Source of the DNA: Pirellula staleyi DSM 6068
GTDB taxonomy: Bacteria > Planctomycetota > Planctomycetia > Pirellulales > Pirellulaceae
DNA length: 64,000 bases
Direction of reading: 5' to 3'
Assembly: GCA_945875845.1 (NCBI GenBank)
Contig: CAMCMB010000012.1
Coordinates: 1-64,000, forward strand
The notes beneath the pieces are model-generated. The model did no database searches. It was not told the DNA's origin and saw only the letters and a list, made by a program, of their open reading frames with translations. The number at the start of each line of letters is the position of its first letter. Position 1 is the first letter of the stretch. The position numbers and the translations under genes are program-made. Below, one piece after another: positions 4,275 to 64,000 of this stretch.

Positions 4275-4315
4275 CGGCGTGTTCTCCGCCATCGGCGGTA
4301 CATCTTTTGATCTTG

Positions 4316-4374
4316 CTCCCCTCGCCCTGTACTCCCCTGTACTCGGGGAGAGCCCGAAACGGGGCGAGGGGGAG
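4316..4374. repeat. REP-like inverted repeat between convergent genes
   Basis: CTCCCCTCGCC at 4316-4326 pairs with GGCGAGGGGGAG at 4363-4374, with further C/G-rich complementarity inside. It lies between the stops of the phosphoesterase gene and the convergent DUF1501 gene and could terminate transcription from both sides. A related C/G-rich sequence occurs near 62390-62460. Confidence 0.6.
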
Positions 4375-4390
4375 AAAACGCAGGTCGCCA

Positions 4391-5875
4391 TCAGACCAGT
4401 ATTTCATCGATGGGCATTCCGTGATCGATTTCTAGCCGCTTGCGGCCTGGGACTTCGAGCTTGCGCGAGTCCAGCCCCAGTTGCTTCAAGATCGTTGCAT
4501 GAATGTCCGTAACATAGTGCCGATTCTCGACTGCGTGAAAGCCGATTTCGTCGGTTGCGCCATGCACAACTCCGCCTTTGATTCCTCCGCCCGCCATCCA
4601 CACGCTGAATCCATAAATATGATGGTCTCGGCCATCCGAACCCTGCGTCCCAGGCGTTCGGCCAAACTCGCTTGCGAACAGAACGATGGTGGAATCGAGC
4701 AAGCCTCGTCGCTTTAAGTCTTGCAGCAATCCCGCGATCGGCTTGTCGACCGCCTTGAAGTTTTTTTCATGATTGGTCTTGAGGCCGCTATGCGCATCCC
4801 AAACGCCCGCCCCGCCCGCACCATGTTGAACTTGGATGAAACGAACGCCTCGCTCGATGAATCGCCGCGTCGCAAGCATTTGCATCCCGAAGTCACGCGT
4901 GGCCGGGTCGTCGAGGCCATAGAGGGCTTCGGTTTCTTTGGTTTCCGAGTTTAAGTTCAAAACCTCAGGCACCGAGGTTTGCATGCGAAAAGCGAGTTCG
5001 TAGGCTTTGATTCGGGCGGCCAATGCGGCGTCCTTCGGGTATTCGACCGCCTTGAGCCGATTCAATCCTCCCACCAAATCGAATCCCAGTTGCTGTTCTT
5101 CGTCGCTGATGCCGCTTGCGGATTTAGCGAAGTCGAGCGGATTGTTTGGATCGACGCGAATGGGGATCGCGTCGTGAGCAGGTCCGAGGTAGTGCCCATC
5201 CTTTGCGTTCCAATACTCGCGGTTGCCCATCGAAATGAACTGAGGCAAATTATCATTGACACTCCCCAGTCCATAGTTGACCCAAGCACCGAGCGTTGGG
5301 TATTCGCCATCGAGCATATGACGTCCGGAATGGAACTGAGTCTGGGCTCCGTGATTGTCATCCGTCGTCCACATGGACCGAATGATCGATAGATCGTCTA
5401 CGCAGGCTCCAACATGTGGCACCCAGTCGCTGAGTTCGATTCCAGCCTCGCCGTACTTTTTGTAGCCGACTTGGAGCGGGTAGAGTTTGTTGCGCTGTTG
5501 TCCATTGGCGTCGTTGACAACCGTCACGCGAGCAAGTTTTAATTTGTCCGGATTCTGAGCGTCTTTGTAAGGTGTTTCGCCAATCGACTTCCCACCGAAT
5601 TTCGTGAGTTCGGGTTTGGGATCGAAACTCTCCATGTGCGATACGCCACCGTTCATGAAGAGCCAGACGACGCTCTTGGCTTTGGGTGGGAAGTGCGGTT
5701 GCCCATTCGGCGGCAACCATAGCTTCTCGGCGTCCGCACGGACGATCCCGTCCTGAGCCAACATCGCCCCTAACGCTAAACCTGTAAATCCCATGCCCAT
5801 GTCGGCAAGAAACGCACGTCGGTGAATTCCGCCGTTCGACGTGACATGAACGTGGTTGCTTCGGTTGTTTGTCAT
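4391..5875 (-). CDS. DUF1501 domain protein, Tat-exported
   Basis: This 494-residue protein has a twin-arginine leader ([11 protein letters not shown], about residues 17-27) and a hydrophobic h-region. It covers the whole DUF1501 domain: [20 protein letters not shown] near residue 70, the [12 protein letters not shown] region, WDAHSG, and [17 protein letters not shown] near residue 400. DUF1501 belongs to the alkaline-phosphatase/sulfatase-like fold and is greatly expanded in planctomycetes; its substrates are unknown. Its start lies 11 nt after the stop of the PSCyt1/DUF1549/DUF1553 gene, the standard planctomycete pairing, so the two are almost certainly cotranscribed and work together in the periplasm or on the surface. 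Confidence 0.92.
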
Positions 5876-5886
5876 AAGTAAATGTC

Positions 5887-8700
5887 TTAACGTATCGTGA
5901 CAAAATCGTTGTGGTTGAGCAATGCGAGAACCAAGCTGGTTCGAGCGTGTGCGGTTGGATTCTCGCGATTTTTTTGCTGGGCGATGACGGTCAAACGCGT
6001 TAAGCTTTCGCTTGCAAGTGACTGTTCCTGTGACGTTGGTTCGACCGACAGAACCGTCAGGAAGGCAGCCCGAATAAACTCGGTGTCCGTAGCATCCGGG
6101 TACGTTTTCGCGATGCGCTGTGCGATCTTCTCACCCATCGCAGTCGCCAACTTGCTGTTCTCCAAAGCGAGAGCTTGTTGTGGAACGATGCTCTCTGCCC
6201 GACGGTAGCAGTCCAATACACTTGCGTCGTCAAACATCGAGAGGAATTTTTGATGTTCGTTGTGCGAGTGAACGAAATAGAGACTTCGCCGCCGCGAGTT
6301 CTCGTCGTTGGCAGGAATCGATGGCCCGCCGAGCGTCAGGTCTAATTCGCCCGCGAGATGTAGCAAACTGTCTCGAAGACTCTGCGCTTCCATGCGAACA
6401 GGATTCGCTCTCCAATAGAATCGATTTTCCGGATCTCGCGTCTCGTTGTCGACGGATGCTCCAGCATTCGACGAGGACATGCGATAGGCTTGTGAAGTGA
6501 CGATGAGCCGATGCAAGTGTTTCATGCTCCAACCCTTTTCAATCAACTCGACAGCGAGCCAATCGAGCAATTCGGGATGCGTGGGCGGTGTCCCTTTCAA
6601 GCCGAAATCGAATACGGTTGGCACAAGTGGTTTTCCCATGTGTCGCATCCAGATATGATTGACGGCAACGCGGGCCGGCAGCGGATGCTTGGGGTCGGTC
6701 ATCCAATTGGCCAATGCGGTACGGCGGCCTGTGCTTGTATGAGGAAACGGCTTGCGACGCGACTCCTCCGTCTCCAGGTTGGACTCAAGTGTTTTCAGAG
6801 AACCCATCAGCGGCGTAAAATTCTCTGCAGGCATCTGAAGCGATTGCTTCGCGGTTTCCACGGCGGCCAATGCGGCGGTTCGTTTCTTCTCCAGCTCCTC
6901 TTTCTTGTTGTCGACAGCAAGTGCCACATCCATTTCTGCTTGGGCTGCCGCTTGTTCTGCTTTGGCGACCGTCGCGATCCTCTCCAGTTTGACCGCCTCT
7001 TGAGCGAGGGATGCAGCATTCCCAGTCGATGGCGGTTGGACCCGAGCGTGTTCGGCGGCGGCTCTCGCCGGAATGGTCAGCGATTGAGCCATTGCAGCGG
7101 CCAAAGCCTTTTCTGCGATCAGGACTCCCAGCCGAGCTTGTTCGGAGTTAAGTGGTTTGTCGGCTGCCTTGGACTTTTTCGATCCCTTGGCCTCGGTTGC
7201 GTTGGGATTAGCAGAGGTTTCATTCGAGACAGGCAAAGAGAGTTGATTTGCAGCCGCTTCTTCCGCAGCGACTCGCGCTGCTGCTTCAACCTCGACAAGC
7301 TTCTTGCGAGCGGTCTCAAGTGTTGCTTTTGCTGCGTCAATTGTTTTCTCGGCAGCCTTGATGTAGCTTTCGGCGACAAAGGGTCGCAGGCTAGGTAGAT
7401 AGGCGTCGGGTGGAAGCGCAACGGGCTGAATTTGCCAAGATGCGTTGGACAGAAAGGCCGGGACAGCGGGATGCATCGGTCGGCTCTTGTCGGGATTCCG
7501 ATCGTCGCCGCGAACATGTAAAAAGGTTTCCGAATCGAGATTGCAGTCAAATGCTCTCGGCAGACCATCCCGTTCTGGGTCCACTTCGCCAGGCAGGAAA
7601 TCGGTTCGGACTTGATAGGGTTCAAAAATCGCTCGCATTTGGTAGTAGTCCACGTGAGCGATCGGATCGTATTTGTGGTCATGACATTTGGCGCAATTGA
7701 ACGTTAGGCCAAGCATGGCTTTGGACGTATGCTCGACGGTTTCATCCAGCCAACTGGTTCGGTTGAATTTGAAGTATTGTCTGGCCAAAAACCCGGATGC
7801 CCGCAGTCGATCTAGATCGTTGGGATAGAGTTCGTCCGCTGCCAACATTTCTCGCAGCATTTGATCGTAGCCTTTATCGGCATTGAGCGACTCGACGATC
7901 CAATCTCGCCAATGCCAGATGTGCTTCTGAGAGTTGCGAACTTCGGCCCCGAGTCCCCACCAGTCACTATAACGCCATACATCCATCCAATGCCGTCCCC
8001 AACGTTCGCCGTACTGTGGACTATCGAGCAAACGGGTGACGATTTTGTCATGAGCGTCAAGCGACGCATCGGCAACAAATGCATCGAGTTCGGCCAACGT
8101 CGGTGGCAAGCCGATCAGATCGAGCGACACCCGTCGCAACCAAACTCGCTTGTCGGCTTCAGGTTGCGGCTTCAGATCGCGATTTCGATGTTCGTTGGCG
8201 ATGAAGCGGTCGACAGGATTATGATTCCAGCGTTCCTGTTCCGCAGTTGTCGATCCGAGATTCGGAACAACTGGTCGCACCGGAGTCTTAAATGCCCAAT
8301 GGTCGCGAGGGTCTTGGTCGGGTTTTTCATCGACCGGACCGGTTGCGTTCTGCGCGATCCAGTTTTGGATGGCTGCGATCTGGTCGGGTTTTAGCGGTTC
8401 GCCTTCGGGGGGCATCCGGTCCGATTCCTCTTTTGCAGAGATCCGCTGGAGCAATCTACTTGAATCGACCTCGCCGGGAACGAGTGCAGGGCCAGATTCT
8501 CCACCTTGGATCGCAAGGGCTACCGTGTCGAGCCTCAATCCACCTTCCTGTTTGAGAGCCCCATGACACGCCACGCACCGCTCGACGAACACCGGTTTGA
8601 CTTGCTTCACGTAGTCGACATTTGCCTGCTGAGCGAGCGTGGAGTTGGACATGCAAAGCGCAGCCAACAAAGCAAGAAGTGTTTTCGAATTCAAGGACAC
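5887..8700 (-). CDS. PSCyt1-DUF1549-DUF1553 planctomycete cytochrome-type protein
   Basis: The protein has 937 residues. A Sec signal peptide ([17 protein letters not shown]) precedes a PSCyt1 haem motif CVACH at 42-46 with the downstream DRMPP ligand region near 95. DUF1549/PSCyt2 follows ([16 protein letters not shown]), including a second CxxCH (CAKCHDH, about 358). DUF1553/PSD1 begins near residue 660 ([20 protein letters not shown]) and runs to the C-terminus. Between them, at about 460-650, lies an Ala/Lys/Glu-rich low-complexity segment predicted to be coiled coil. It is first in a two-gene operon with the DUF1501 gene. The family is presumed to do extracytoplasmic redox chemistry; its reaction is not established. 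Confidence 0.93.
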
Positions 8701-9031
8701 GGCGAAGTCGACCTAGAGGAAGGGGGGAGGTAGTCGGTCGGGAGTTGGGAACCTTTATCTTAGTTCAAATTACCTGTTTTCGCAGCCAACAACAAGTAAC
8801 TTGCCTTGCAATTCTCGAATGGATTAAGAATCAATGGGAGGGCGAGGCTCCTGCCCTAAACATCTTTGCAATTTAGAATCCATTGAAAATCAATGGGAGA
8901 GCGAGGCTCCTGCCGAGCTATTTACGCCACGGTTCGGCAGGAGCCTCACCCTCCCCAGCAATGAATGGGTTGGGCAAGGCCTAACAAAACATGTCTACAG
9001 GGGTGGACTCACCCTCCCGCTAAAAACGTTT
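8701..9031. other. Intergenic region dominated by REP-like repeats
   Basis: No gene is supported in this region. It separates the PSCyt1 gene from the esterase gene (both on the minus strand) and is largely occupied by the palindromic elements listed separately. A last incomplete arm (GGACTCACCCTCCCGC) lies around 9004-9019. Confidence 0.6.
8826..8955. repeat. REP-like element: two direct copies plus inverted arm
   Basis: AATCAATGGGAGGGCGAGGC occurs near 8829 and again, with one change, near 8889. The second copy (8895-8918) is followed after 13 nt by an almost perfect inverted arm at 8932-8955, giving a 24-bp stem. This is a typical planctomycete intergenic palindrome. Reading frames through it give peptides such as WEGEAPAE, which are likely to be over-annotated as small genes. 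Confidence 0.8.
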
Positions 9032-9937
9032 TCAATCCGCGGGTTTCGGACTCACCTTCAAAGTGGCTAACCATTCTAGGGATTCTTTCTGCCAAGCGTC
9101 CCACATGGGACCTTGATAGCCATTTAGACCGTGATCCCCTGTGGGTAGTTCGAGGTAGCGGGACGCAATCCCTTTGGCTTGGAGAGCGTCGAAGAACGCT
9201 TTGCTATGATCCGACGAGACGACTCGGTCATTCAAGGCGTGAGCCAAAAAGGTGGGAGGTGTCCCAGACGTGACTTGTTTTTCGTTTGAAAACCAGTCCA
9301 TTTGTTCTTGGGTCGGGTTATCTCCCAAAAGGTTTTTCATGGAGCCTCGATGCGTTTTTTCGTTGAACGTGATGACAGGGTAAATCAGTACCAAGAAATC
9401 GGGACGGCAGCTTACTCTGTCCACGGGATCGCTTGCAGTTGGATTTCCAAGATCAAAGTGAGTACCGGCGGTAGAAGCCAAATGACCGCCAGCCGAAAAG
9501 CCCATAATGCCAATCCGCTTGGGATCGAGCGACCACTCTGCAGAACGATTGCGAACCATTCGCAAGGCTCGCTGCGCATCGAGCAATGGGACCATGGATC
9601 GCCCCTTGGGCAATCGATATTCCAAGACAATGCCTGTAATGCCATGCCGATTCAACCACGCTGCGATGCCATGCCCCTCCGCACCGGTGACCAAGCCTCC
9701 ATAGCCACCCCCCGGACAAATCACGACCGCCGATCCACTGCTCTCGGTCGGACGATGCACGCTGATCCAAGCGTCGGACGCCTCACGCTTGCCCTCGCCG
9801 ACGGGCGCTTCGTTGTCCCAAAGCGAGATCCGAGTCGGTTCAGCAATCGGCTTCGGAACTTTCGTTTCTTGGGCAAAGCAGATTGGAGTGGTTAGGCTCA
9901 AGATCATTCCAAAAACGACATGACGGGGGAGTTGCAT
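9032..9937 (-). CDS. Secreted alpha/beta-hydrolase, acetyl-esterase type
   Basis: The product is 301 residues from the ATG at 9937, which has AAGGAAA about 10 nt upstream and opens a clean Sec signal peptide (MQLPRHVVFGMILSLTT then FAQ). An in-frame TTG at 9988 is possible but unlikely. Motifs: an oxyanion-hole segment PGGGYGG, the nucleophile elbow GFSAGG (G-x-S-x-G), a candidate acid in HALNDRVV and the catalytic His in GDHGLNG near the C-terminus. The pattern matches esterase/lipase proteins related to acetyl-xylan and other carbohydrate esterases; the precise substrate is unknown. It stands alone between repeat-rich gaps. Confidence 0.87.
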   Translation of the reverse strand: MQLPRHVVFGMILSLTTPICFAQETKVPKPIAEPTRISLWDNEAPVGEGKREASDAWISVHRPTESSGSAVVICPGGGYGGLVTGAEGHGIAAWLNRHGITGIVLEYRLPKGRSMVPLLDAQRALRMVRNRSAEWSLDPKRIGIMGFSAGGHLASTAGTHFDLGNPTASDPVDRVSCRPDFLVLIYPVITFNEKTHRGSMKNLLGDNPTQEQMDWFSNEKQVTSGTPPTFLAHALNDRVVSSDHSKAFFDALQAKGIASRYLELPTGDHGLNGYQGPMWDAWQKESLEWLATLKVSPKPAD

Positions 9938-10362
9938 GTGTTTTGTTTCCTTATTGGGTATCAGCATTTTTTTGGACACATTATACAAACGGACTGTTAT
10001 TCTACCGCCGGCACAATGGTTCGGGTACGAGTTCCGCTTCTAGCGGAATAGCGCAAGGCCGTCGATTGAGGATTCGCAAAACCACTTCGGAATTCACCGG
10101 GCGGCTCGCGCCGCTCCGCTACGAAAACATTGGTTCGACCCGAAAGTAAGGGGCATGGTGCCCCCTGTAGGCGTACGTAAATGAATCGATATGCCAGCGG
10201 CTGAGCGTAAGTGAATAATTGAACGGGATTTCGGTTAACGAAGAGTTAACACCCGACCTGCGTTTGGAATCCAGCTTGCCGTCGTGTATAATGTCTTGGT
10301 TGTTCGGGCCCCCCGCGCATCCCACCTTTGCCAGTAAACAATACTCCCGCCCATTAAGCTCT
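9938..10362. other. Divergent intergenic region with a repeat half-copy
   Basis: This region lies between the esterase (minus) and the DUF1592 protein (plus) and must hold both promoters, though no confident -35/-10 pair is visible. It carries a half-copy of the CACCGG palindrome (listed separately) and a small hairpin GGGGCATGGTGCCCC at 10150-10164 with no T-run. Confidence 0.4.
10092..10125. repeat. Half-copy of the CACCGG/GCTACC palindrome family
   Basis: TTCACCGGGCGGCTCGCGCC followed by GCTCCGCTAC matches the left arm of the fuller elements at 45069-45132 and 53744-53808. The right arm is absent here, so this is a truncated copy. Confidence 0.75.
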
Positions 10363-12255
10363 ATGCACAGATTACCCAGCAGCTTAGGCTCAGCCTTGGC
10401 CGCTTTCATATTTGCCCTGATTTCTTCGATGCCTTCCTTGGCTCAGGAAGTCCCGCGCGAGGAAGCTGCCGCGATGGCGGTGCGGACGCTGACGAAGTAC
10501 TGTTACGATTGCCACACCGGCGACAAAGCTGAAGGTGGCGTTCGTGTCGATTTTTTGGCGACCGATGGAAAACTCGAAGATCATGTCGAGCTGGTCGACA
10601 AGATCCTTTTGGTGCTCAAGGAGCAACAAATGCCCCCCGCAGATGCCGAACAACCGGACGGTGCCGAGCGAGTCCAGTCCATCGAGTGGATCGAGCAGCG
10701 ACTGCGACAGTTCGATTGCGGCAGCGTCAGTCGCCCCGGTCGCGTCACCATGCGCCGATTGAATCGAACGGAGTACAACAACACGGTTCGCGATTTGACT
10801 GGCTTGGATTTGAAGTTGGCCAATGATTTTCCATCCGACGACGTCGGGAATGGATTTGACAACATCGGGGATGTGTTGTCTTTGCCTCCGATTTTGATGG
10901 AGAAGTATCTAACGGCGGCCAAGCAGATCGCAGATGAGGTCATGAAAAGCCCCGACGCCGCGAAAAAAGTATTTCCACGCCAGGCAAACGACCCGAACAA
11001 CGTTGACGAAGTGGTCGAAGTGGCTCGTGCGAACGCCAGCAGCTTTGCACAACGTGCGTTTCGCCGACCGTTGGACGCGGACGAGACGGAAAGGTTGTTC
11101 AATCTGATGCGCCTCGCTTGGGACGCAAACGCCAAAAAAGAAGAGATCATGCAGACGCTGATCACGGCGGTCCTGGCTTCGCCGCATTTCATCTATCGCG
11201 TTGAGGAGGATGACCCTCAAGATTTTGTGGACGGGGTGCGGCCTCTCAACGACTTTGAGATGGCTTCGCGCTTATCGTATTTTCTTTGGAGTAGCATGCC
11301 GGACGATCGACTGGTTGAACTGGCCAAGGAAGGAAAGCTCCATACCGCCGAGCAGTTAAATGCGGAAGTTGATCGCATGTTGTCCGATCCAAAAGCGAAA
11401 GCCTTGGTCGAGAATTTTGCCGGTCAGTGGCTTCAATTGCGAGATTTGGAAGCATTGTCACCGGATCCGGTGAAGTTTGCTGCATTCGACGCCACATTGC
11501 GTCGCTCGATGCGGCGCGAGACGGAGTTGTTATTCACAAGTATTTTGGATGAGAATCGAAGCATCCTGGAATTGTTGAGCGCGAGTTACACGTACTTAGA
11601 TGAACGCCTAGCCAAGCACTACGGTATCGAGGGAGTTAGCGGGAATGAGTTCCAGAAAGTCGACTTGATGGGCAAGCGTCGCGGTGTGTTGATGCACGGC
11701 AGTATTTTGCTGCTGACTTCCAATCCGACGCGCACGTCCCCTGTCAAACGTGGTAAATGGGTGTTGGAGAACTTGTTGGCCGAACCGCCGCCACCCCCAC
11801 CGCCGAATGTGCCAGAATTGGGTGCGGCTGGCGAGACGCTGGGAACGTTGCGTCAGCAAATGGAGCAGCATCGGGCCAATCCAAATTGCGCAGTTTGCCA
11901 CGTGAAAATGGATGCTGTGGGGTTTGGCCTGGAGAACTTCGACGCGATCGGAGCATGGCGCGAGGCGGACGGTCGCGAAAAAATTGACCCTTCGGGAATC
12001 CTCCCAGGTGGTCGGACATTTAACGGTCCACTGGATTTAGTGCAAATTTTGGTCGAAGATAAGAAAGTCGAATTTACACGCTGCCTGTCGTTGAAAATGT
12101 TAACATATGCCTTAGGGCGTGGGCTAGGTGTCGCGGATCGCTGTACCATAAGTTCCATCGTCGACAATTTGGCAAAAGATAATTACCGGTTCTCTACCTT
12201 GATTAAATCGATCGTAACCAGCCCACCCTTCACCCACCAAGAATCAGGACGTTAA
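10363..12255 (+). CDS. DUF1587/DUF1592/DUF1588/DUF1585 planctomycete cytochrome-type protein
   Basis: The product is 630 residues from the ATG at 10363, which gives a Sec signal peptide (FIFALISSMPSLAQE); an upstream TTG at 10219 would bury it. In order: a PSCyt1-like CYDCH motif, DUF1587 (RRLNRTEYNNTVRDLTG), DUF1595 (QRAFRRPLDADE), DUF1592 (LNDFEMASRLSYFLWSSMPD), DUF1588 (GVLMHGSILLLTSNPTRTSP and a Pro-rich EPPPPPPP), a second CAVCH motif and DUF1585 (YALGRGLGVAD). This is the complete domain order of a large planctomycete family thought to be extracytoplasmic c-type cytochromes of unknown substrate. The DUF1552 gene starts 2 nt downstream, the usual partner, so they form one operon. Confidence 0.93.
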   Translation: MHRLPSSLGSALAAFIFALISSMPSLAQEVPREEAAAMAVRTLTKYCYDCHTGDKAEGGVRVDFLATDGKLEDHVELVDKILLVLKEQQMPPADAEQPDGAERVQSIEWIEQRLRQFDCGSVSRPGRVTMRRLNRTEYNNTVRDLTGLDLKLANDFPSDDVGNGFDNIGDVLSLPPILMEKYLTAAKQIADEVMKSPDAAKKVFPRQANDPNNVDEVVEVARANASSFAQRAFRRPLDADETERLFNLMRLAWDANAKKEEIMQTLITAVLASPHFIYRVEEDDPQDFVDGVRPLNDFEMASRLSYFLWSSMPDDRLVELAKEGKLHTAEQLNAEVDRMLSDPKAKALVENFAGQWLQLRDLEALSPDPVKFAAFDATLRRSMRRETELLFTSILDENRSILELLSASYTYLDERLAKHYGIEGVSGNEFQKVDLMGKRRGVLMHGSILLLTSNPTRTSPVKRGKWVLENLLAEPPPPPPPNVPELGAAGETLGTLRQQMEQHRANPNCAVCHVKMDAVGFGLENFDAIGAWREADGREKIDPSGILPGGRTFNGPLDLVQILVEDKKVEFTRCLSLKMLTYALGRGLGVADRCTISSIVDNLAKDNYRFSTLIKSIVTSPPFTHQESGR

Positions 12256-12257
12256 AA

Positions 12258-13607
12258 ATGTCGAGTTTGCAAAATTCCAAGTTATCCCGTCGCACAGTTC
12301 TTCGCGGTTTAGGTGTTTCGCTGGCATTACCTTGGTTAGAGGCCACGTCATCGGTTGCCAAAGCGGCAGCAGTTGCTTCGTCACCGACTCGCATGGCGTT
12401 CATCTTCGTGCCCAACGGCGTGGTGATGAATAATTGGGTTCCGAAAACGGAAGGCTATGGTTTTGAGCTTTCACCCACATTGCGCCCGCTTGCACCCGTC
12501 CAAGACGACCTGATGGTCATTACAGGTTTGACGCACGACAAGGGCCGAGCGAACGGTGATGGAGCCGGCGACCATGCGCGGAGCGCTTCCGTGTTTCTGA
12601 CCGGATCTCAGCCCAGGAAAACCGACGGGGAACTCATTCGTTCTGGCATGTCCGTAGATCAAGTTGCCGCGAAAGCGGTTGGACAAAGGACTCGTTTTTC
12701 GTCGCTGGAGTTGGGTGTCGATCCGGGTCGAATGGCAGGGAACTGCGATTCGGGTTATAGCTGCGCGTACTCATCCAATATCTCATGGTCCGGTGAGTCC
12801 AATCCGGTCGGAAAAGAGGTGAATCCGAAACTGGTGTTCGAACGATTGTTTGGGGGTGGCAAGCCTAGCGAAGTGGACAAGAGCCAACAGCAGCGCGAAG
12901 CACTTCAAAAAAGCGTGCTCGATTTCATTGCAGACGACGCAAAGCGGTTGCAGTCGAAACTCGGTCGCAACGACAATCGCAAGCTTGATGAATATATGAC
13001 AGGCGTTCGCGAAGTGGAACGTCGCATTGGAACTCGAACTGCGAAACCGGCAGACATCAATGTCGATTATGCCATTCCGGATGGTATTCCAGGCGATTAT
13101 CAAGATCATATACGAATGATGTGCGACCTCATGGTGCTCGCATTTCAAACCGATTCAACACGCATCGCCACAATGATGTTTGCCAATGCGGGCGACAACA
13201 AAAATTATCGCAAGATCGGCGTCGCGGAGGGCCACCACGATCTTTCGCACCACGGTGATAACCCAGAGAAACTCGAAAAGATTAGCCAGATTAATCTTTT
13301 CCACATTCAACAACTAAGTTACCTGCTCACCAAGATGAAGTCGATTCGCGAGGGCGATCGCAACCTTCTCGACAATTCGATGGTCGTTTATGGTAGCGGC
13401 CTCAGCGACGGCAACCGTCACAATCACGATAACCTACCCATTTTGCTGGCTGGCTCCGGTGGAGGAACGATTGATTCAGGACGGCATGTGCGTTACGACC
13501 TGGAGACCCCGGTTTGCAATTTGTTCATGTCGATGTTGGATCGCGTAGGGGTTGATACGCCCTTTATCGGCGATAGCACCGGCCGACTGCCCGGTTTGAG
13601 TTTATAG
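12258..13607 (+). CDS. DUF1552 domain protein, Tat-exported
   Basis: A 449-residue protein with a twin-arginine leader (LSRRTVLRGLGVSLALPWLE) and then RMAFIFVPNGVVMNNW, the start of the DUF1552 domain, which extends to the C-terminus (VVYGSGLSDGNRHNHDNLP near 380). DUF1552 is distantly related to DUF1501 and the alkaline-phosphatase-like fold. It starts 2 nt after the DUF1592 gene and is its regular genomic partner. The Tat leader suggests export in folded form, possibly with a cofactor. The molecular function is not known. Confidence 0.93.
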   Translation: MSSLQNSKLSRRTVLRGLGVSLALPWLEATSSVAKAAAVASSPTRMAFIFVPNGVVMNNWVPKTEGYGFELSPTLRPLAPVQDDLMVITGLTHDKGRANGDGAGDHARSASVFLTGSQPRKTDGELIRSGMSVDQVAAKAVGQRTRFSSLELGVDPGRMAGNCDSGYSCAYSSNISWSGESNPVGKEVNPKLVFERLFGGGKPSEVDKSQQQREALQKSVLDFIADDAKRLQSKLGRNDNRKLDEYMTGVREVERRIGTRTAKPADINVDYAIPDGIPGDYQDHIRMMCDLMVLAFQTDSTRIATMMFANAGDNKNYRKIGVAEGHHDLSHHGDNPEKLEKISQINLFHIQQLSYLLTKMKSIREGDRNLLDNSMVVYGSGLSDGNRHNHDNLPILLAGSGGGTIDSGRHVRYDLETPVCNLFMSMLDRVGVDTPFIGDSTGRLPGLSL

Positions 13608-13647
13608 ACGTTGGCGGTTTCGAGCTTATTCTAGTTGGAGAGTTTCT

Positions 13648-15978
13648 GTGCGTTTTCTTTGGAACCTTGCGATTGCGTTCTGTTTTTGTGCGCAATTAAC
13701 GAGCCTTGGGGCAGCGCAGGTACGAGATTCGTCGGTGGAGGAACTCATCAAGCTGTTCGATGAGAAGGAAGTGGAACGGCGGCGAGACGCGGCGTACGAG
13801 TTAGTGCGGCGCGGGGATCACTCCGACGCGGTGATCGCGGCCTTGGGAAAAGCATCCAACGATGATGATGTTCAGGTGCGTGTGCAATCGCTCACCGGAC
13901 TAGCACGAGCGGGTAACAAGGCCGTGACAGTGATTCCTGAGCTTTTAACTTGCCTTCGCAATCGCGATGCCCAGGTCCGCTTTCGTGCCGCTCAAGCGTT
14001 GGGAGCGGTAGGTGTGTCCGCGATCGAGCCGCTATCAACCAATTGGATGTCTGCTTCCAATGAGGCAAAAATTGCAACGGCACAGGCTTTTGCGATCATT
14101 GGCCAGCAAGCAACATCCGTCGTCCCATTGATGTCCGAAGGTCTGACTGGAAAGGATGGATTGCCACGGTATGCAGCGGAAGCGTTGGTGGCCATCTCGC
14201 CTCAGGATGAAACGGCGCTGCTGGAAATTTCGAACAATACCGATGCGGCCGCGCGAAAAGTTGGAATCGCAGCGTTGGCTGCGCTGAAGGCGCCTTCGGA
14301 GCTCGCCATTCAAAAACTGCAAAAGGCCGCTACGGATTCGGAGCCGAAGATTCGTGAATTAGCGATTATCGTCGTGGCCAAGTCGCGTCTGTCCATCGAT
14401 GAGAAGTCAACATTAATTGAGGCCGCTTTGATGGACGCGGCCTCGTCCGTTCGAGCGGCGGCTATTGTGGCCATGCGTAATGCGTCGCTGCCAGCTGATG
14501 AGTTCTCGCAGCGGATCGCGGCTCGATTGCAATCGGTTGATGTTGAAGTCGCCAATGCAGGAGTGAAAGCCATTTCCATGTTCGGTGTCGGCGGGAAAAA
14601 TAGTTTGCCTGCCATCGTAGAGCTGGTGAGTAGGGAGGGCATTGATCAACGACTGGTATCGCAAACTCTGGCGAGTTTTGGTGCGGAAGTCGTTCCAGAT
14701 TTGCTAACCGCGATTGAAAAGCAACCCGCCAACGAGCCGGTGTTTTCGCAAGCACTTGGACTGATTGGTGAACCTGCGGTGGCATCGTTGACGCGCGGCA
14801 TGTCAAGCGATGTGGAAGTGGTGAGAATGGCAGCCACGCGTGCGCTCGGGGGCGTGCGTCCGACGAACAGATCGTTGCTTGAGAAGTTGGTGGTGGCGCT
14901 CGAGGACAAGTCAGCTCAAGTGCGTGAGATAGCGGTACGATCACTGATAGCTGCCTCCCGCGAAGCCGATTTCACGCAAGACTCTATCTTGAAAGCTACG
15001 CACGATGTCGAACCACAGGTACGTGCGGTAGCCATTCAGTCACTCCGAAGTTTCAAGTTCACGCCTGAAACAACTCAGGAGACTTTGGATCGAAGCTTGA
15101 AAGATGCGTCGCCAGAGGTTCGAAGCAGTGCGCTGCTCGTCATGAGCGAAATGCCGAAGCTGCTTCAAGGGCAGAGCGACACGTTGGTCGTTCTGGTGAA
15201 GGATGCCGATGTGAAAGTTCGGTCCATGGCGGCCCAAACGATTGGTAAGTTAGACAAAAAGCAGGTGAATGACTCGGTTGTGCAGGCATGCCGTACCGCG
15301 CTTGGGGATAGCGACTATGCGGTTCGGATTGCTGCGACAAAGTCCGTGAAGTCCCTTGGGATCGCAGAACCTGCGGTTTTGGAGGCGCTTGGCTGCAATT
15401 TGGTGGATGACTTGGGCTTGTTGCGAGTGACCTTGGAAGCGATCTCAGGTTTTGGAGACAAGGCAGCGTCTTTGATGGAAACCGTTTCGCATTTGTCCTC
15501 GCATGAAAAAGCCGAAGTGCGAGTCGCCGCGTTGAACGCATTAGCCGGCATTATCAAGGATCCGCCGTTGCTTGTCGGTCACTTAACGAATGCCCTTGAG
15601 GACAAGGAATGGGAAGTCCGACGCATCGCGGGCGTTGCGTTAGGCAAGTTGGGGCCAGAAGCAAAGAGTTCGGTACCTAAATTGTTTCGATTGCTGAGTA
15701 GCAATGAAGATCGGGATTTTGCAAGCGGTGCGTTGAAAGAGATCAACACGGCTCCAGTGGAAGCGATTCCGTTGCTCATAGAAAATCTTGGGTCCGAAGA
15801 GCGCAGGACCGCTTTCTACGCGGTCACCTTGCTCGGAAAGATCGGCCCACCCGCCTCGGAGGCACTGCCCAAATTGGAGGAAATGCTGGAGAAATCTAGT
15901 GGCAATGCGGGTCAAGGGAAATTTGGCAAGAAGCCGTTAGAAGAAGCGATTGCTGCGATCAAAGCCGAACCGAAGTAG
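13648..15978 (+). CDS. Exported HEAT-repeat protein
   Basis: A 776-residue protein with an N-terminal signal peptide (FLWNLAIAFCFCAQLTSLGAAQ). The whole mature part is made of roughly 38-residue alpha-helical repeats with the V-R-x-x-A-x-x-A-L core (for example VRFRAAQALGAVG, VRMAATRALGG, VRRIAGVALGKLG), so it is a HEAT/PBS-lyase-type solenoid of about 18 units. It has no catalytic motif and is probably a scaffold. It begins 40 nt after DUF1552 and ends 5 nt before the RraA-like gene, and may organise the exported DUF1592/DUF1552 proteins; that role is inferred from position only. Confidence 0.9.
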   Translation: MRFLWNLAIAFCFCAQLTSLGAAQVRDSSVEELIKLFDEKEVERRRDAAYELVRRGDHSDAVIAALGKASNDDDVQVRVQSLTGLARAGNKAVTVIPELLTCLRNRDAQVRFRAAQALGAVGVSAIEPLSTNWMSASNEAKIATAQAFAIIGQQATSVVPLMSEGLTGKDGLPRYAAEALVAISPQDETALLEISNNTDAAARKVGIAALAALKAPSELAIQKLQKAATDSEPKIRELAIIVVAKSRLSIDEKSTLIEAALMDAASSVRAAAIVAMRNASLPADEFSQRIAARLQSVDVEVANAGVKAISMFGVGGKNSLPAIVELVSREGIDQRLVSQTLASFGAEVVPDLLTAIEKQPANEPVFSQALGLIGEPAVASLTRGMSSDVEVVRMAATRALGGVRPTNRSLLEKLVVALEDKSAQVREIAVRSLIAASREADFTQDSILKATHDVEPQVRAVAIQSLRSFKFTPETTQETLDRSLKDASPEVRSSALLVMSEMPKLLQGQSDTLVVLVKDADVKVRSMAAQTIGKLDKKQVNDSVVQACRTALGDSDYAVRIAATKSVKSLGIAEPAVLEALGCNLVDDLGLLRVTLEAISGFGDKAASLMETVSHLSSHEKAEVRVAALNALAGIIKDPPLLVGHLTNALEDKEWEVRRIAGVALGKLGPEAKSSVPKLFRLLSSNEDRDFASGALKEINTAPVEAIPLLIENLGSEERRTAFYAVTLLGKIGPPASEALPKLEEMLEKSSGNAGQGKFGKKPLEEAIAAIKAEPK

Positions 15979-15983
15979 TCTCA

Positions 15984-16682
15984 ATGAATAACTTCGAGAG
16001 TCCTTCCTCGTCTGGTTTGCGATTCGACGATTTGCCGATCTCGCTTGCTCAAATGCGTGAACACCTATCGGTGCCGTTGCTTTGCGATGCACTTGATGGA
16101 ATGGGATTGTTGCGTCAAGCTCCGAGGCTCCCACTAATCCCATTGACGGTCCCTGGTATATTGGTGGGTCGTGCCAAGACAACGTTGTGGGCGGATATGT
16201 CGCATATCGATCCAGCCCCTTATCGGTTGGAGTTGGCCGCGGTGGACTCGTGTCAGCCGGAAGATGTTCTGGTGTGTGCGGCCAGCGGTTCGATGCGATC
16301 TGGCATTTGGGGTGAATTGCTTTCGACGGCAGCTCGCAACCGTGGATGTGTTGGCACCATCATTGATGGAGCGGTTCGAGACACGGTCCAGATGCGGAGC
16401 ATGGGATTTCCGGTTTTTGCGCGCGGCACTTGCCCTTACGATAGCCGAAACCGGCAACGCGTTATTGATTACGATGTGCGTATTGAACTGGATGGCGTTA
16501 CTATTGAGCCAGGGGACTTAATAGCAGCCGATGCCGATGGCATCGTGGTTGTTCCTCAAGCGGCAGCACCTCGAGTGGTCGCCGCAGCTTGGGCGAAACT
16601 ACATGATGAGAATCGGGTGCGCGACGCCATTCGCGGAGGCATGTCCGCCACGAAAGCATTTGACGCGTTTGGTGTACTTTAA
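15984..16682 (+). CDS. RraA/HMG-aldolase family protein
   Basis: The protein has 232 residues and is soluble. It carries the family core: GELLSTAARNRGCVGTIIDG (about 115-134) followed by AVRDTVQMRSMGFPVFA. The D-G-x-x-R-D motif supplies the metal and substrate ligands in 4-hydroxy-4-methyl-2-oxoglutarate aldolases. The ending around PGDLIAADADGIVVVP is also standard. Family members are divalent-metal class II aldolases/decarboxylases, or RraA proteins that bind RNase E; with a lyase gene next door an enzymatic role is more likely. Start is 5 nt after the HEAT gene. Confidence 0.85.
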   Translation: MNNFESPSSSGLRFDDLPISLAQMREHLSVPLLCDALDGMGLLRQAPRLPLIPLTVPGILVGRAKTTLWADMSHIDPAPYRLELAAVDSCQPEDVLVCAASGSMRSGIWGELLSTAARNRGCVGTIIDGAVRDTVQMRSMGFPVFARGTCPYDSRNRQRVIDYDVRIELDGVTIEPGDLIAADADGIVVVPQAAAPRVVAAAWAKLHDENRVRDAIRGGMSATKAFDAFGVL

Positions 16683-16774
16683 AAACCACCGCTTGGTTAA
16701 CCCATAGGATAAAATTCAAACGCGTTGTCGCCAATGCGTCGTTTCTCCACCGTTCAACGAAAGTGATTCTATTG

Positions 16775-17707
16775 ATGAGTGTTTTCCGTGGCTGTATGCC
16801 AGCCTTGATGACCCCTTGCGATCGCGCTGGCAAACCCGATTTTGATGCGTTGGTTGCCAAGGGGAAACAGTTGGTAAACGAGGGTATGGCGGCTGTGATC
16901 TATTGCGGTTCCATGGGGGACTGGCCGCTGCTGAGCGATGAGCAGCGACAGGAAGGGGTGCAGCGACTCGCCCAAGCAGGCGTACCCGTGATTGTCGGTA
17001 CGGGTGCGCAGAATTCGCGGATTGCAGCCGATCATGCCGCCCATGCTTGCAAGGTCGGGGCGGCAGGACTCATGGTGATCCCCCGCGTGCTATCGCGTGG
17101 GTCCTCCAGTGCTGCTCAACGGCATCACTTTGCAGGCGTTCTGCGGGCTGCGGATGGGTTGCCAGCCGTCATCTACAATAGTCCTTACTACGGATTTGAA
17201 ACGAAAGCGGACTTGTTTTTTGCTCTGCAATCCGAATTCCAAAACCTCGTTGGCTTCAAGGAGTTTGGTGGCGCCGATTCATTGACCTATGCAGCAGAGC
17301 ACATCACGACCGGTCACCCAAATCTCTCACTCATGGTCGGCGTCGATACGCAAGTCTTTCACGGCATTGTTCGCTGCGGTGCGGTGGGAGCGATCACGGG
17401 TGTGGGCAACGCGCTCCCTCGGCAAGTGCTGCGGCTAGTGGAGTTATGCTTGCAGGCCGCCTCTGGAGTCGGTCCCGCTCGACGCTTAGCTGCGGAATTG
17501 AACGATGCCCTATCGGTGCTTTCGACCTATGACGAAGGGCCCGACTTGGTGTTGTACTACAAGCACTTGATGGTGTTGGAAGGAAATCCAGAATACGAGC
17601 ATCATTTTAACAGCACCGACACATTGACTCGTTCCCAACGCGCCTTTCTAGAGCAACAATGGGAGCAGTTCCGCGTTTGGTGGGATAACTGGGAGGGCAA
17701 AGCATAA
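16775..17707 (+). CDS. Dihydrodipicolinate synthase / N-acetylneuraminate lyase family protein
   Basis: A 310-residue TIM-barrel aldolase from the ATG at 16775 (an in-frame GTG at 16763 is possible). Features seen: ALMTPCD near the N-terminus, the GSMGDWPLLSDEQ segment at the place of the G-T-T-G-E motif, YNSPYYG containing the catalytic Tyr, and GFKEFGG containing the Schiff-base Lys. The GTTGE loop is altered (GSMGD), which argues against a housekeeping DapA and for a catabolic 2-oxo-acid lyase or dehydratase. It lies 92 nt after the RraA-like gene; the two may act on the same keto-acid pathway. It is the last gene before a strong terminator. Confidence 0.85.
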   Translation: MSVFRGCMPALMTPCDRAGKPDFDALVAKGKQLVNEGMAAVIYCGSMGDWPLLSDEQRQEGVQRLAQAGVPVIVGTGAQNSRIAADHAAHACKVGAAGLMVIPRVLSRGSSSAAQRHHFAGVLRAADGLPAVIYNSPYYGFETKADLFFALQSEFQNLVGFKEFGGADSLTYAAEHITTGHPNLSLMVGVDTQVFHGIVRCGAVGAITGVGNALPRQVLRLVELCLQAASGVGPARRLAAELNDALSVLSTYDEGPDLVLYYKHLMVLEGNPEYEHHFNSTDTLTRSQRAFLEQQWEQFRVWWDNWEGKA

Positions 17708-18108
17708 AAGGCCACCCCATTTGAAGGCAGGTTTCGAACTGCCGCTCGCATGAAAAGACAAAGGCCGATGGTTTTCCATCGGCCTTTTTCTTTGTTCCCT
17801 GGCACCGAGGCGAGTTTTGGCTCACCTCGGCGCACAGTCTTAAGCTCTATCGTGAAGCACCGATTCTTGGCAATTGACCCAGTAATCACCAGATTTCGGC
17901 TGTATGCTGCTCCAACCCAGGAGGAAGGCCAGTCGAACATTCCCGCAAATTCTCGACCGACGACAGAGCTTTAAAATGGTTCGTCGTTGGACCAGGAAAT
18001 ACGCCAGTAACCTCTCAACCGTCAATGGCAATTCCACCAATTTTTATTCATTCATGGATTTCTGTCTTATTCGTCTTTTCCTGTATGCCACAAACGACCC
18101 ATCTTGCC
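17708..18108. other. Convergent intergenic region
   Basis: This lies between the stops of the DHDPS-family gene (plus) and the peptidase fusion gene (minus). The hairpin terminator at 17761-17793 occupies the left part. The remainder contains only short overlapping ORFs without ribosome-binding sites. Confidence 0.5.
17761..17793 (+). terminator. Rho-independent terminator
   Basis: A perfect 11-bp stem, AAGGCCGATGG with CCATCGGCCTT, closed by a TTTT loop and followed by TTTCTTT. It lies 54 nt after the stop of the DHDPS-family gene and ends the putative 10.4-17.7 kb operon. Confidence 0.92.
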
Positions 18109-21100
18109 TTACTTGCGATCGAGAAGGTGTTCCTGGAAGAAGTCCGTCATCATTTGATACTGATGGTAGATTTGGTCGGCGTCGACCACTCCATGGCGAT
18201 TATCTGGGTATACCATCAAATCGAACTTCTTATGGGCTTTTTGAAGCGCATGGACGAATTGCAGCGTGTTGGCAATATGAACGTTGTCGTCAATTTCGCC
18301 ATGGATCAACATCAAACGTCCGTGCAAGTCCTTGGCGGAATTAACCACCGAACTTGACTTGTAGCCCTCTGGATTCGCCTTCGGTGTGTCCATGTAGCGC
18401 TCGGTGTAGACGGAATCGTAATTGTTCCAGTCCGTGACAGGTGCGCCCGCGATCCCCGCTCGAAAGAGTTTGCTGTGAGTCATGGAATACGCGGTAAAGT
18501 ATCCGCCATAGCTCCACCCCCAAAGTCCAATGCGTTCCGAATCAACCCAGGACTGTTGGCCGAGCCATTTCACCGCATCTTCCAAGTCCCTAAGCTCGGT
18601 CGCCGCCAGGTCTTTGTAGATCTTCCACGTGTCCGAGTTCCCTCGCCCAAGTGCGGACCGATTATCGCACAACAAGACACAAATGCCTTGTTCCGCCATA
18701 AAGCGGTGCCAAAGATCGCTTCGATGAGTCCATGTGTTCTCAACAGTCGATGTGGATGGCCCTCCATAAACATATATCAAAACTGGCATCTTCTTGCTCA
18801 GCGAACGCGTTGCGAAATCCGTAGGTTTATAGAGCATCGATTGCATCGGGAAGCCATCCCGAGCCTTGATTTCGAATAAGGACACATCACCCGCCTTGAG
18901 GAAGTCAAATCGGTCATTGCGATATCCACCCACAAAGCGAACGTTTTTCCCCTCTTGATTTCGCAACCAGAGTTGGTTGGGCGTCTTGATATCGCTCCAC
19001 AAGTCGAAGTAATAACCGCCTTTGGGATGAATGCTGACTTTATGAACCCCATTCGGTTCGCCGATCGTGTCGAGTTTATTGTTCGTCAAGTCGACTCGTA
19101 GTAGATCCAAATTGATCGGTGCGGAGCGATGCCCAAGCAACCACGCTTGTTTACCATCCGGCGAAACCCAATCAATGGATTTCACGTCCCATGCTCCTTC
19201 GGTTACTGCCGTGCGATTGCCATCGGTCCCTATCCGAAACACATGCCTGCGTCCTGCTACGGAATCGCTTAACCACAGAAAACTGCCATCGGGAAGCCAC
19301 TTCGGTTCGTCAATCACATCCACCCAAGCAGGTGAAGTCTCCTTAAGAAGTTTTGAAAGCTTACTTGAGGCAACGTCGAAAGAGCATAGATCCAGTTTGG
19401 ATTGGATACGATTCTGAATCTGAAAGACAACTTCGTGCTTACTTGGCAATGGATTCCACCCAACGCGAACAATCAATCTGTCGTCTACAGGGTACGCATC
19501 AAGCGGAATCTCTTGTTGTTTGCCGCTTGCCACGTCGACCACATGCAGCGTCGCGAACGGGTTTGGTTGGCCGCTCTTTGGATAGCGAGTCTCCTCGATC
19601 TTCTGTGCGAAGGACAGCGAGTTATCGATCTGGAAGCGAGGAACAAGTGTCTCGTCCAGGCGAAGATACGCAATGGAAGCCCCGTCTGGGCTCCACCAGT
19701 ATCCTTTGAATTTTCCTCGTCCGTAGATTTCTTCTTGGTAGACCCAATCGAGCTTTCCATTGAGTATTTCGCCGCCACCATCGACGGTCAACTTGCGGAC
19801 CTCGGTCGACTCGCAATCTGCGACCCAAATGTTGTTGTCATGAACGTAGGCAACGTGCTTGCCTGTCGGGCTCAACTCCACAAGTTCCTTCGGTTGCTCG
19901 GGGGAATGGGTAATCTGACGAACCGTGTCACGCGGTGGGTCCTTTGCTCGTTCGGAACCGAAATCGCTACCGGTTTGGAATAGATAGATATCGCCATTGT
20001 GCTCGATCAAAGCGTTCTCGAAACGTGCATCGAACACATTGCTTCGCGGGAGATAACCACGTGCTTGTCCATCCTTAAAGGCATCCAATTTGCTTAAAGC
20101 GTCAACGAGTCGACTCATTCGGTCGAAGGGTTGTGTGGCACCTGATTTGCAATCCACGGAGTGCCATCGTCCATCTTGTTGCATCAAGTAAGACTCTTGA
20201 TCCGGAAGCCATTTCGGCATAGCTGGGGCAAGTCCCGTGTAGGCGACCAGCGTTTGAGGATCGTACATCTTGGCTAGTGTCAGTTCCTCTTTGGCCATAT
20301 CGTCCTGCGCGGACTCCATCATGCCAAGCGGTTTCAGGGTTGGTGGCACTGCCATTCGTTTTTCGATGCGTAGAACGGAGTAAGCGGACTTGGGTTGCAG
20401 GCCTGGATCGAAGAAATTCCATACGGCCAACGAATCATCTGCGTTCGGTTCGAGCAAATACGTTGCCAGTACGCCCAGCGACTGCCGTGTGGAAACGAGC
20501 CATCCTGCCTTGGGTTGCCACTCCACCGGTTCGGTAGAGACTTCTACTTTTCGCAATCGATGGTTTTGAAACTCAGGCAGATCCTTGCGCGACACGATTC
20601 GATATTGCGAAGCCGGTAGTTTACTCATGGCGGCCGCTGTCTCGGAGTCGAGCCATGACATTGCGATTCCGTGTAGCCTCAATCGGCCTGCCGCCCAAGC
20701 GTTGTCCGCCGGAATGAAGTAGTACTCTGGTGCATCGGCGTTCAAAATGGATAAACCGACGTTCACCAATTTCACTTCAAAATCAGTCGGAACCATTTCG
20801 GATTTCCGTTTTCGGTCTCTGGGCGTTGGAAAACGACTTGGCTTTCCTGAGTTTGGAACAGCATGCTCGTGGTCATCTTCTTGTTCTACAACCGCATCGC
20901 TCTTTGCCTGACCGGTGTTCCCATTCTTAGACCATTCGAAGCCTTTCGCGATGGCCGGCGCTTCGTCTGCAACGATCTTGGCTTGGATCGAGACGGACTT
21001 TGGGGGATTACTGCCGTCCCGCTGAAGCATGGGGCCAAGTTTCTCGGCGTTCTCCGTTAGCTGCTTGAGGCATGCGTCGACGAACAGATACGATGCGTCG

Positions 21101-62484: not shown

Positions 62485-62853
62485 TTAACCTTGAGTGACC
62501 GATGTAGAAATGGTCGCACCCACGGCTTCGGCATAGCGTTGTAAGGTCAGGAGGGTTGGGTTCGCGTTCTCGGCATTATTTTCCAGCCGGGAAAGTGCAC
62601 TTCGCTTTAGACCCGATTTGGTTTCGACATCTGCGAGAGACAATCCGAGAGATTCCCGCCGCGATCGTAAGTCAGCGATCGTTTTGGTAACCTGTTGTCT
62701 TACCCGAGCCCGGGCATTTTTTCTGAATCTCCCCTCAGCTAAAATCTCGTCCTTGGCCCTTTCAGTTTCACGCCGAGCAGTCGTTAGCTTGAGCCGTTCG
62801 TTCTCTGTGAGTTCACGGTGAACACGTTCGGAAGTAGCTTTTTTCTTAGCCAT
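62485..62853 (-). CDS. XRE-family antitoxin/DNA-binding protein
   Basis: 122 residues. The first ~55 are highly charged (Lys/Arg/Glu). Residues ~60-118 are a Cro/CI-type helix-turn-helix: LRSRRESLGLSLADVETKSGLKRSALSRLEN, then PTLLTLQRYAEAVG. It lies 102 nt downstream of the BrnT-like toxin gene on the same strand, the toxin-first order seen in related pairs. It probably neutralises the toxin and represses the shared promoter. Confidence 0.83.
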   Translation of the reverse strand: MAKKKATSERVHRELTENERLKLTTARRETERAKDEILAEGRFRKNARARVRQQVTKTIADLRSRRESLGLSLADVETKSGLKRSALSRLENNAENANPTLLTLQRYAEAVGATISTSVTQG

Positions 62854-62955: not shown

Positions 62956-63201
62956 TTAATCGATTTCGTACGCAGTTACGGGAACAAACGTACCGCGGTC
63001 GATGAATTCGAACACACAAGCCAGAAACTTACCTGTCGACGTTTCTCCGAACACGATTGGTCGACCTGACGCGCGACTTTGTCCTATCTCCTCTGAATCC
63101 AGAACCACTTCCTCAAACTCATCGGGTGTCACACCGTGCAGAGCCAAGTACGCGACTATTTCATGGTTCCAAATAAACCGTACGTACGGCAGGTCGTTCA
63201 C
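62956..63201 (-). CDS. BrnT-like toxin (putative)
   Basis: 81 residues from a GTG at 63201; no ATG gives a better start and the frame continues open to 63270 with non-conserved sequence. Conserved core: FIWNHEIVAYLALHGVTPDEFEEVV, then SGRPIVFGETSTGKFLACVFEFID and FVPVTAYEID at the end. The pattern matches the small BrnT/DUF4258-like ribonuclease toxins in planctomycetes and cyanobacteria, usually paired with an XRE or BrnA antitoxin. Here an XRE gene follows. The catalytic residues cannot be confirmed by eye. Confidence 0.68.
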   Translation of the reverse strand: MNDLPYVRFIWNHEIVAYLALHGVTPDEFEEVVLDSEEIGQSRASGRPIVFGETSTGKFLACVFEFIDRGTFVPVTAYEID

Positions 63202-63238
63202 ATATATGTTAACACACAAAAATACCAAAATCAAGTCA

Positions 63239-63361
63239 ATGCAGCGACTGGTGGAATATGCCGAGTCCATTGGGATTCATCCCGAACGTGCGAAGAGCCT
63301 CCTGCGGCGTGCGCGTGAAAAACTTGCCTCAGATTCGACCTTGCGTCATTGGTATTGTTAG
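63239..63361 (+). CDS. Possible 40-residue ORF, sigma-region-4-like helix
   Basis: An ATG at 63239 opens 40 codons: MQRLVEYAESIGIHPERAK, then SLLRRAREKLASD. The IGIHPERAKSLLRRAREKL part resembles the end of sigma-70 region 4. No ribosome-binding site is evident. It lies opposite and just upstream of the toxin gene. Could be a relic or chance. Confidence 0.3.
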   Translation: MQRLVEYAESIGIHPERAKSLLRRAREKLASDSTLRHWYC

Positions 63362-63598: not shown

Positions 63599-63625
63599 CG
63601 CTCGTGACCAAACGTGTCACGAGCG
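63599..63625. promoter_or_regulatory. Inverted repeat, candidate operator upstream of cas genes
   Basis: CGCTCGTGAC (63599-63608) and GTCACGAGCG (63616-63625) are exact reverse complements separated by 7 nt. The repeat follows an A/T-rich tract (63570-63592) and lies 79 nt before the csb1 remnant. It may be an operator for a dimeric regulator or an RNA hairpin; no T-run follows, which argues against a terminator. Confidence 0.5.
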
Positions 63626-63704: not shown

Positions 63705-63818
63705 ATGAAATTTTCTGACTTACAAAACGCCGTTCGAACGGCAGCCGCAATTCGTTGTCGCACACGACTTCAACCTGCCGGCGGGGAAGGTGATAAAGTT
63801 TTTCCACCGACGTACTAG
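63705..63818 (+). pseudogene. csb1: Truncated 5' end of csb1 (cas7 of CRISPR type I-G/I-U)
   Basis: 37 codons, MKFSDLQNAVRTAAAIRC then RTRLQPAGGEGDKVFPPTY, followed directly by TAG and two more in-frame stops. The AAIR-x-R-TRLQPAGG-x-GDKVFPPTY pattern is the conserved N-terminus of Csb1, the Cas7 backbone protein of type I-G (formerly I-U) Cascade; a normal Csb1 is several times longer. It ends 18 nt before the cas3 start. The downstream part of the gene has been lost, or a full copy lies further on. Recognition is from memory. Confidence 0.75.
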
Positions 63819-63836
63819 AGCTAGGGAAAGTAAGCA

Positions 63837-64000
63837 ATGATGCAGTTTAAGGATGCTTTTAAACTACTAACTGATTATCCACCATTCCCGTGGCAAGAGG
63901 CGCTGTATCGAGACTGGTTCAGTACAGGCAACTTTCCAGCCACTTGCAGTTTGCCGACGGGACTCGGCAAAACATCGGTCGTCGCGGTTTGGCTGATCGC
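63837..64000 (+). CDS. cas3: Type I-G (I-U) CRISPR-associated helicase Cas3, N-terminus, cut by window edge
   Basis: 54 codons are visible (ATG at 63837 or 63840; GGGAAAG upstream). DYPPFPWQEALYRDWF is a Q-motif-like start and CSLPTGLGKTSVVAVWLIA is a Walker A motif (G-L-G-K-T), the opening of the Cas3 DExD/H helicase of this subtype, which lacks an N-terminal HD domain and places it elsewhere. Cas3 unwinds and cuts target DNA after Cascade recognition. The gene continues past base 64000, so completeness is unknown. Confidence 0.85.
   Translation, partial: MMQFKDAFKLLTDYPPFPWQEALYRDWFSTGNFPATCSLPTGLGKTSVVAVWLI

Follow-up and report, generated by a model that had tools for sequence, protein, structure and literature searches.

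A truncated csb1 precedes cas3 at the edge of a type I-G locus

The window analyzed here (64,000 nucleotides) is the first 64 kb of a 119,078-base contig (C12) in the 7.0-Mb, 149-contig assembly of Pirellula staleyi DSM 6068. Its right end holds the border of a type I-G CRISPR-Cas locus (the subtype formerly named I-U). Operon layouts are denoted by letters coined in this analysis: layout A is csb1-csb2-large cas3; layout B, that of the window operon, is cas3-cas8g2-csb1-csb2, with Bp as a minor variant; and layout C is cas3-csx17-csb1-csb2. The following features were delimited at the border.

63599..63625, + strand: palindrome CGCTCGTGAC-CAAACGT-GTCACGAGCG, with the core GTGACCAAACGTGTCAC at 63604-63620; presumed operator of a retained promoter
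63705..63818, + strand: leader ORF of 37 codons, ATG to TAG; 5′ stub of a csb1 of layout A, not native to the resident operon
63819..63836, + strand: 18-nt junction with in-frame TAG (63822-63824) and TAA (63831-63833) and a weak Shine-Dalgarno-like GGGAAAG (63824-63830)
63837..64000, + strand: start of cas3g (ATG at 63837; TIGR02621), 941 aa, running on beyond the window to contig position 66662

The leader ORF ended in GDKVFPPTY and was closed by a TAG at 63816-63818, and the cas3 ATG was located 18 nt 3′ of this stop. A preliminary description had noted a truncated csb1 start of 37 codons with this end, followed by stop codons and by cas3 18 nt later, and the sequence agrees with it. It had also spoken of csb1 fused onto cas3; the two ORFs do share a frame, but three in-frame stops in all intervene before cas3, and there is no leader-cas3 fusion.

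When compared with the Pfam Csb1 profile (Cas_GSU0053, PF09617), the leader matched from the first profile position with an E-value of 5.7e-5 and 23.6 bits, slightly below the cut-off of 25. Leader residues 16-37 covered profile positions 1-22 of 168, so that the complete domain is absent, and no NCBIfam family was assigned to the 37 residues. A PF09617 search of the whole genome (E ≤ 1) returned two places, the leader (24.6 bits, or 25.9 with its in-frame neighbours) and the intact csb1. Likeness to csb1 past the PPTY residues into the 18-nt junction was not significant (130 of 2000 shuffles were as good). The 54 cas3 codons within the window already matched the Cas3g family TIGR02621 (3.3e-15), and the full 941-aa protein scored 610.6 bits against a cut-off of 400.

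To the right of the window we read on in contig positions 62001-82000 (L002), where the gene order was cas3g, cas8g2, intact csb1, csb2, a transposase-like gene, cas2 and a cas4-cas1 fusion. Cas3g, Cas8g2 (TIGR04106), Csb1 (461 aa as translated; TIGR02570), Csb2, Cas2 and Cas4-Cas1 all scored above their NCBIfam cut-offs, and the type I-G gene set is complete. An adjacent CRISPR array holds 70 repeats (ATTTCCATGACCGAAAGGTCATGGCCTCATTGAAGC) and 69 spacers (L002 12663-17721). The other cas genes and the array were therefore found where the preliminary description had placed them. No Rfam family matched in L002 at the gathering score. Spacers targeting the own genome or rival loci were considered and discarded: when all 69 spacers were compared with the window and with the collected loci, the longest among the best 20 matches was 17 nt.

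The transposase-like gene, together with short REP-looking repeats, occupies the gap between the resident csb2 and cas2 (L002 8408-10289); its match to REP-associated tyrosine transposases (54 bits) is below the cut-off of 80. Upstream of the CRISPR locus, an HTH_3 protein gene (62485-62853, - strand, 122 aa) adjoins a 104-aa ORF (62956-63270, - strand) that has no confident Pfam match, in a toxin-antitoxin-like arrangement. A second Cas3-like helicase of the same genome (G000:C9:109176-110729, a frame of 577 aa) scored below the I-G cut-off.

The leader is the start of a foreign, layout-A csb1

The leader shared 84% identity with the first 37 residues of Csb1 (385 aa) in a relative (G096), the best foreign match, but only 42% with the resident csb1, and that over 24 residues only. 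The leader therefore derives from a layout-A csb1 and is not a copy of the resident gene. In G096 the csb1 is full length and is the first gene of a layout-A operon, ∼3 kb before cas3. The deletion of most of a csb1, as previously suggested, thus stands as to the loss itself, but the gene lost was a foreign one and the resident csb1 is intact.

Among 199 family genomes sampled, 16 (the own genome included) matched the leader at E ≤ 0.01. One of a different genus (G025) carries 31 codons of a layout-A csb1 in front of a layout-C cas3, with a promoter element of the same kind as that of the window upstream. A profile of ten N-termini matched 26 of 396 order genomes and 18 of 392 phylum genomes (E ≤ 0.01), with misses possible because scoring was limited to 19 candidates per genome. 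Strong matches (E < 1e-8) amounted to 17 places in the order and 7 in the phylum, the own genome included. Only the own genome (G000) and G025 had clearly short frames among these; in G088 the frame was of 184 codons, at a contig start, and in G578 of 269 codons.

Within the genus (27 genomes including the own), a DNA search with the leader region, which could miss a diverged stub, did not find the leader in the 26 other genomes; two of them gave a 23-27 nt match, over the palindrome only. Protein searches of 13 of the 26 were likewise without a leader match. Two layout-B cas3 genes of the genus had no csb1 stub in the scanned upstream DNA, namely G195:C110 and G136:C266 (L141), the latter 65% identical over 536 residues and truncated by the contig end. 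At a further same-genus cas3 (G123:C177) just 207 nt were available upstream. I-G layouts vary within the genus, and G136 has both B and C.

A palindromic element lies upstream of the leader

The core GTGACCAAACGTGTCAC is located 100 nt upstream of the leader ATG, and the same core precedes I-G operons of all three layouts. With up to two mismatches allowed, 23 of 112 cassettes had it in the 300 nt preceding their first gene, with 0 of 112 in the antisense control and 0 of 96 on right flanks. By source, it was found in 20 of 43 own-family loci and in 3 of 69 named loci, two of which (L154, L158) duplicate family genomes by sequence. At L057, L068, L074 and L080, GGAC...GTCC replaces TGAC...GTCA, a change matched on both arms as expected for a palindromic site. 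In the own genome the pattern GTGACCANNNNTGTCAC had five sites and its reversed control none.

The proposal that a promoter was kept with the stub gains plausibility from this element, although no sigma-70-like site was found. The palindrome also scored as a terminator-like stem on both strands, and it may act as such. Mimicry of the CRISPR repeat, an autoregulatory arrangement known as CreR-like, was considered and rejected: the own palindrome resembles the stem of the own repeat, but in the two loci compared (L063, L066) the promoter elements are of the same kind as that of the window and the repeats have unrelated stems. A LexA box was rejected as well, with no TIGR00498 match in the assembly at E ≤ 1e-5.

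Two further genomic sites of the palindrome precede other genes. One (G000:C23:56600-56616; L097 1501-1517) lies before a pair that reads, from its ORFs, as putative imuA/imuB-like genes, and the other (G000:C14:10860-10876; L096) before a 400-aa gene that looks homologous to an element-bearing gene in G010 (L093). The palindrome may belong to a damage or stress regulator.

Stubs of foreign cas genes recur at the borders of I-G cassettes

A translated search of the collected loci revealed pieces of foreign cas genes at the borders of other I-G cassettes too. The survey set comprised 132 distinct cas3-holding cassettes, for which 114 flanks of 300 nt or more were available on the left and 114 on the right. 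Both flank strands were compared with the N-terminal 110 and the C-terminal 110 residues of the effector proteins, and intact neighbour genes and frameshifted pieces of the same gene were taken out by hand. Named loci entered the set by layout-B Cas3 likeness (80 of 311 confirmed ones were retained), and layout B is therefore over-represented.

N-terminal stubs of a foreign cas gene were present on the left flank at 13 of the 114 loci, and were derived from csb1 (2), csx17 (1), cas8g2 (1) or cas3 (9):

Left-hand N-terminal stub loci: L002 (window), L023, L024, L052, L057, L073, L075, L140, L160, L170, L179, L194, L148

L148 failed the open-frame rule of the flank search and was counted from other searches, L024 and L075 were inspected individually, and L024, at first set aside, was readmitted after flank search and inspection. 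Right flanks carried C-terminal csb2 stubs at 5 of 114 loci (L057, L159, L197, L207, L216). The search of both strands gave no antisense stub. At the window locus no stub followed the own csb2, and the transposase-like gene occupies the gap.

The polarity was not without exception. Debris of a cas3 C-terminus lies left of the layout-B cas3 at L084, a locus outside the 132-cassette set, and beside the cas8g2 stub left of the cassette at L075, and a weak C-terminal match was obtained on the left flank at L006. A layout-A cas3 piece on the right flank of L184 was left uncounted, as were possible csb2 stubs of only 9 and 15 residues on the right flanks of L160 and L157, respectively. Other candidates were discarded: the right-side N-terminal match at L017 belongs to the following gene of that same cassette, a promoter element had matched an over-extended ORF at L050, the repeats at L020 were REP-like, the pieces at L086 and L009 belong to an adjacent or the same gene, and the match at L059 reached only E 0.001 and 24%.

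Stub loci lie in assemblies labelled Methanothrix (L160, L170; archaea), Opitutus (L179), Verrucomicrobiota (L194), Terriglobia (L148) and Planctomycetota (L140); since these are metagenome assemblies, a misplaced contig is possible for them. L160 and L170 may represent one event, as may L179 and L194. Both Methanothrix loci have a stub of layout-C cas3 in front of an I-G cassette of layout B, an arrangement suggestive of either I-G cassette exchange across the bacterial-archaeal divide or an old common swap.

Layered I-G debris was observed at L057 (G147:C9:206000-225900, positions 3984-19901), where a cas3 N-terminal piece precedes a layout-A operon and csb2 and cas3 pieces lie after it, before cas2 and cas4-cas1. 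Some layout-A cas3 genes, as at L069 (5122-5943, - strand) and L057 (14920-15765, + strand), are followed by an ORF of ∼275 aa that matches only the C-terminal half of layout-C csb2; this ORF may be either a gene in its own right or a large remnant.

At 10 of the 13 left-hand loci, no more than ∼100 nt separated the end of the matched stub region from the incoming first gene, the distance in the other three being 117 nt (L052), 472 nt (L140) and 493 nt (L075). The right-hand stubs at L159, L197 and L207 begin within 10 nt of the csb2 stop. The incoming piece would thus, in many cases, span nearly from first start to last stop, and breaks so close to these points would leave scant room for a promoter of its own. 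In several cas3 stubs the matched part stopped, as judged by eye, at conserved helicase motifs, although similarity may simply fade there. No common motif beyond shuffles was detected at nine left junctions, and no direct repeat longer than 9 nt was detected between the borders of the window locus.

The element was located upstream of the stub in 3 of the 13 stub loci (L002, L024, L052); this check covered another cassette of L057, and L148 had only 386 nt. Retention of the promoter is therefore supported for the window and for G025, but these counts do not establish it as a general rule.

Effector layouts are interleaved among related adaptation genes

A tree was built by a quick method from 35 Cas4-Cas1 proteins (27 of layout B, 5 of A and 3 of C), and its long-branch warnings apply to rows distant from the window. 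The window protein (B) paired with that of L063 (C; support 99), L066 (C) with L071 (A; 100) and L090 (A) with L140 (B; 97). The nearest Cas4-Cas1 to that of the window belongs to a layout-C locus, not to a layout-A locus. Six changes of layout were needed on the tree against a minimum of two, yet the layout labels clustered beyond shuffles (4 of 200 were as low). These data suggest that effector exchange has been repeated but not free. Related adaptation genes accompany differing effector layouts, as in situ replacement predicts.

Discussion

The identity of the stub and its foreign layout, the intact layout-B operon behind it, the recurrence of stubs at other loci and the mixing of layouts on the Cas4-Cas1 tree are direct observations. 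In our interpretation the leader is most probably a scar, the 5′ stub of a layout-A csb1 kept when a layout-B cassette replaced the remainder. A layout-A cassette, with csb1 first, would formerly have occupied the position behind the old promoter. A whole layout-B cassette with little or no promoter would then have taken its place behind that promoter, whose region remained together with the first 37 codons of csb1, start codon included, and cas3 would be translated from its own start on the transcript of the old promoter. That the retained promoter drives cas3 is inferred, and so are the place and the time of the replacement. A border remnant of the old module, as in situ replacement would leave, was found on the left side only, and no relative with an intact layout-A operon at this position in the chromosome came to light.

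As a variant of this reading, and not exclusive of it, the scar might have formed in another host, with the whole locus, stub included, transferred afterwards. Such a transfer would fit both the failure to find the leader elsewhere in the genus and the variation of layouts within it, and we have nothing specific against it; we regard it as possible, although hardly probable.

Loss without any exchange at the border is an unlikely explanation of the window locus. Here an upstream or tandem layout-A operon would have been deleted from csb1 codon 38 to the layout-B cas3. A single event would suffice, tandem or layered I-G cassettes exist (G093, G147), and the window locus alone fits deletion and replacement alike. 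The opposing evidence comes from other loci, where the cas3 and csx17 stubs and the right-side C-terminal stubs fit replacement better.

The preliminary description had raised the possibility of a regulatory leader. A leader peptide is a short ORF ahead of the first gene, and the stub has that position; it differs in being the remnant of a gene and in not being found in the rest of the genus. A selected ORF whose translation would control cas3 by coupling or attenuation could account for the intact ATG-to-stop frame, 18 nt from cas3 and in phase with it, and the stub frames of the Methanothrix loci extend past the next start. Compared with the G096 csb1, the leader has 26 synonymous and 7 non-synonymous changes (pS 0.92, pN 0.09), and most of the divergence therefore arose under protein-level selection. 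The low pN indicates either that truncation was comparatively recent, in which case it is also expected, or that the ORF is still selected. Conservation in relatives, which would mark a regulatory leader, was not found in the DNA and protein searches of the genus, clearly short frames among the strong order and phylum matches were confined to G000 and G025, and the RNA fold is ordinary (z -1.03, a value reached by 28 of 200 shuffles). The lack of a match in the genus searches and the ordinary fold favour a passive scar, a selected role of its own being very doubtful, and the leader presumably has none. That description also proposed that the promoter and 5′ end of the resident csb1 had been duplicated and now precede cas3, which is scarcely credible given the far closer likeness of the leader to the foreign csb1.

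With the leader read as a replacement scar, a broader model may tentatively be considered, one that we hold to be rather improbable as it stands. I-G effector modules would move as compact start-to-stop cassettes and be caught, promoterless, behind a resident promoter and first codons, in the manner of a gene trap; the stubs left at the 5′ and 3′ ends would then be homology arms and the site a slot of recurrent exchange.

In situ replacement of effector modules beside retained adaptation genes has been reported, exchanges within subtypes such as I-U among them, and many of the boundaries could be placed to the nucleotide (PMC5704561); the same process of effector replacement is described in PMC6452270 and PMC12669027. 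The window resembles the former cases in that adaptation genes were kept and effector genes exchanged. The main-text account of PMC5704561 gives boundaries without mention of a first gene surviving as a 5′ stub, a last gene surviving as a 3′ stub or placement behind an old promoter, and in a literature covered mostly at the level of titles and abstracts we recognised no description of border stubs. The type I-G Cascade reported in PMC9638904 has, like the window operon, cas3, cas8g, csb1/cas7 and csb2 genes, but the solved complex contains the larger Cas8g1, whereas the window operon encodes Cas8g2. The finding is thus a variant of known module replacement, a border scar with a polarity that is consistent though imperfect.

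It has been proposed that exchanging effector modules offers a way to evade anti-CRISPR proteins (PMC6452270). Border stubs constitute a sequence-level record of the replaced and the incoming module and of the positions of the breaks, and leftovers of this kind also occur next to I-G operons of other bacteria and of two archaeal assemblies. Some of the short cas "genes" that adjoin operons may be scars and not new components. The stubs also suggest that an incoming operon can come under the old promoter, so that the old regulation would be passed to the new genes.
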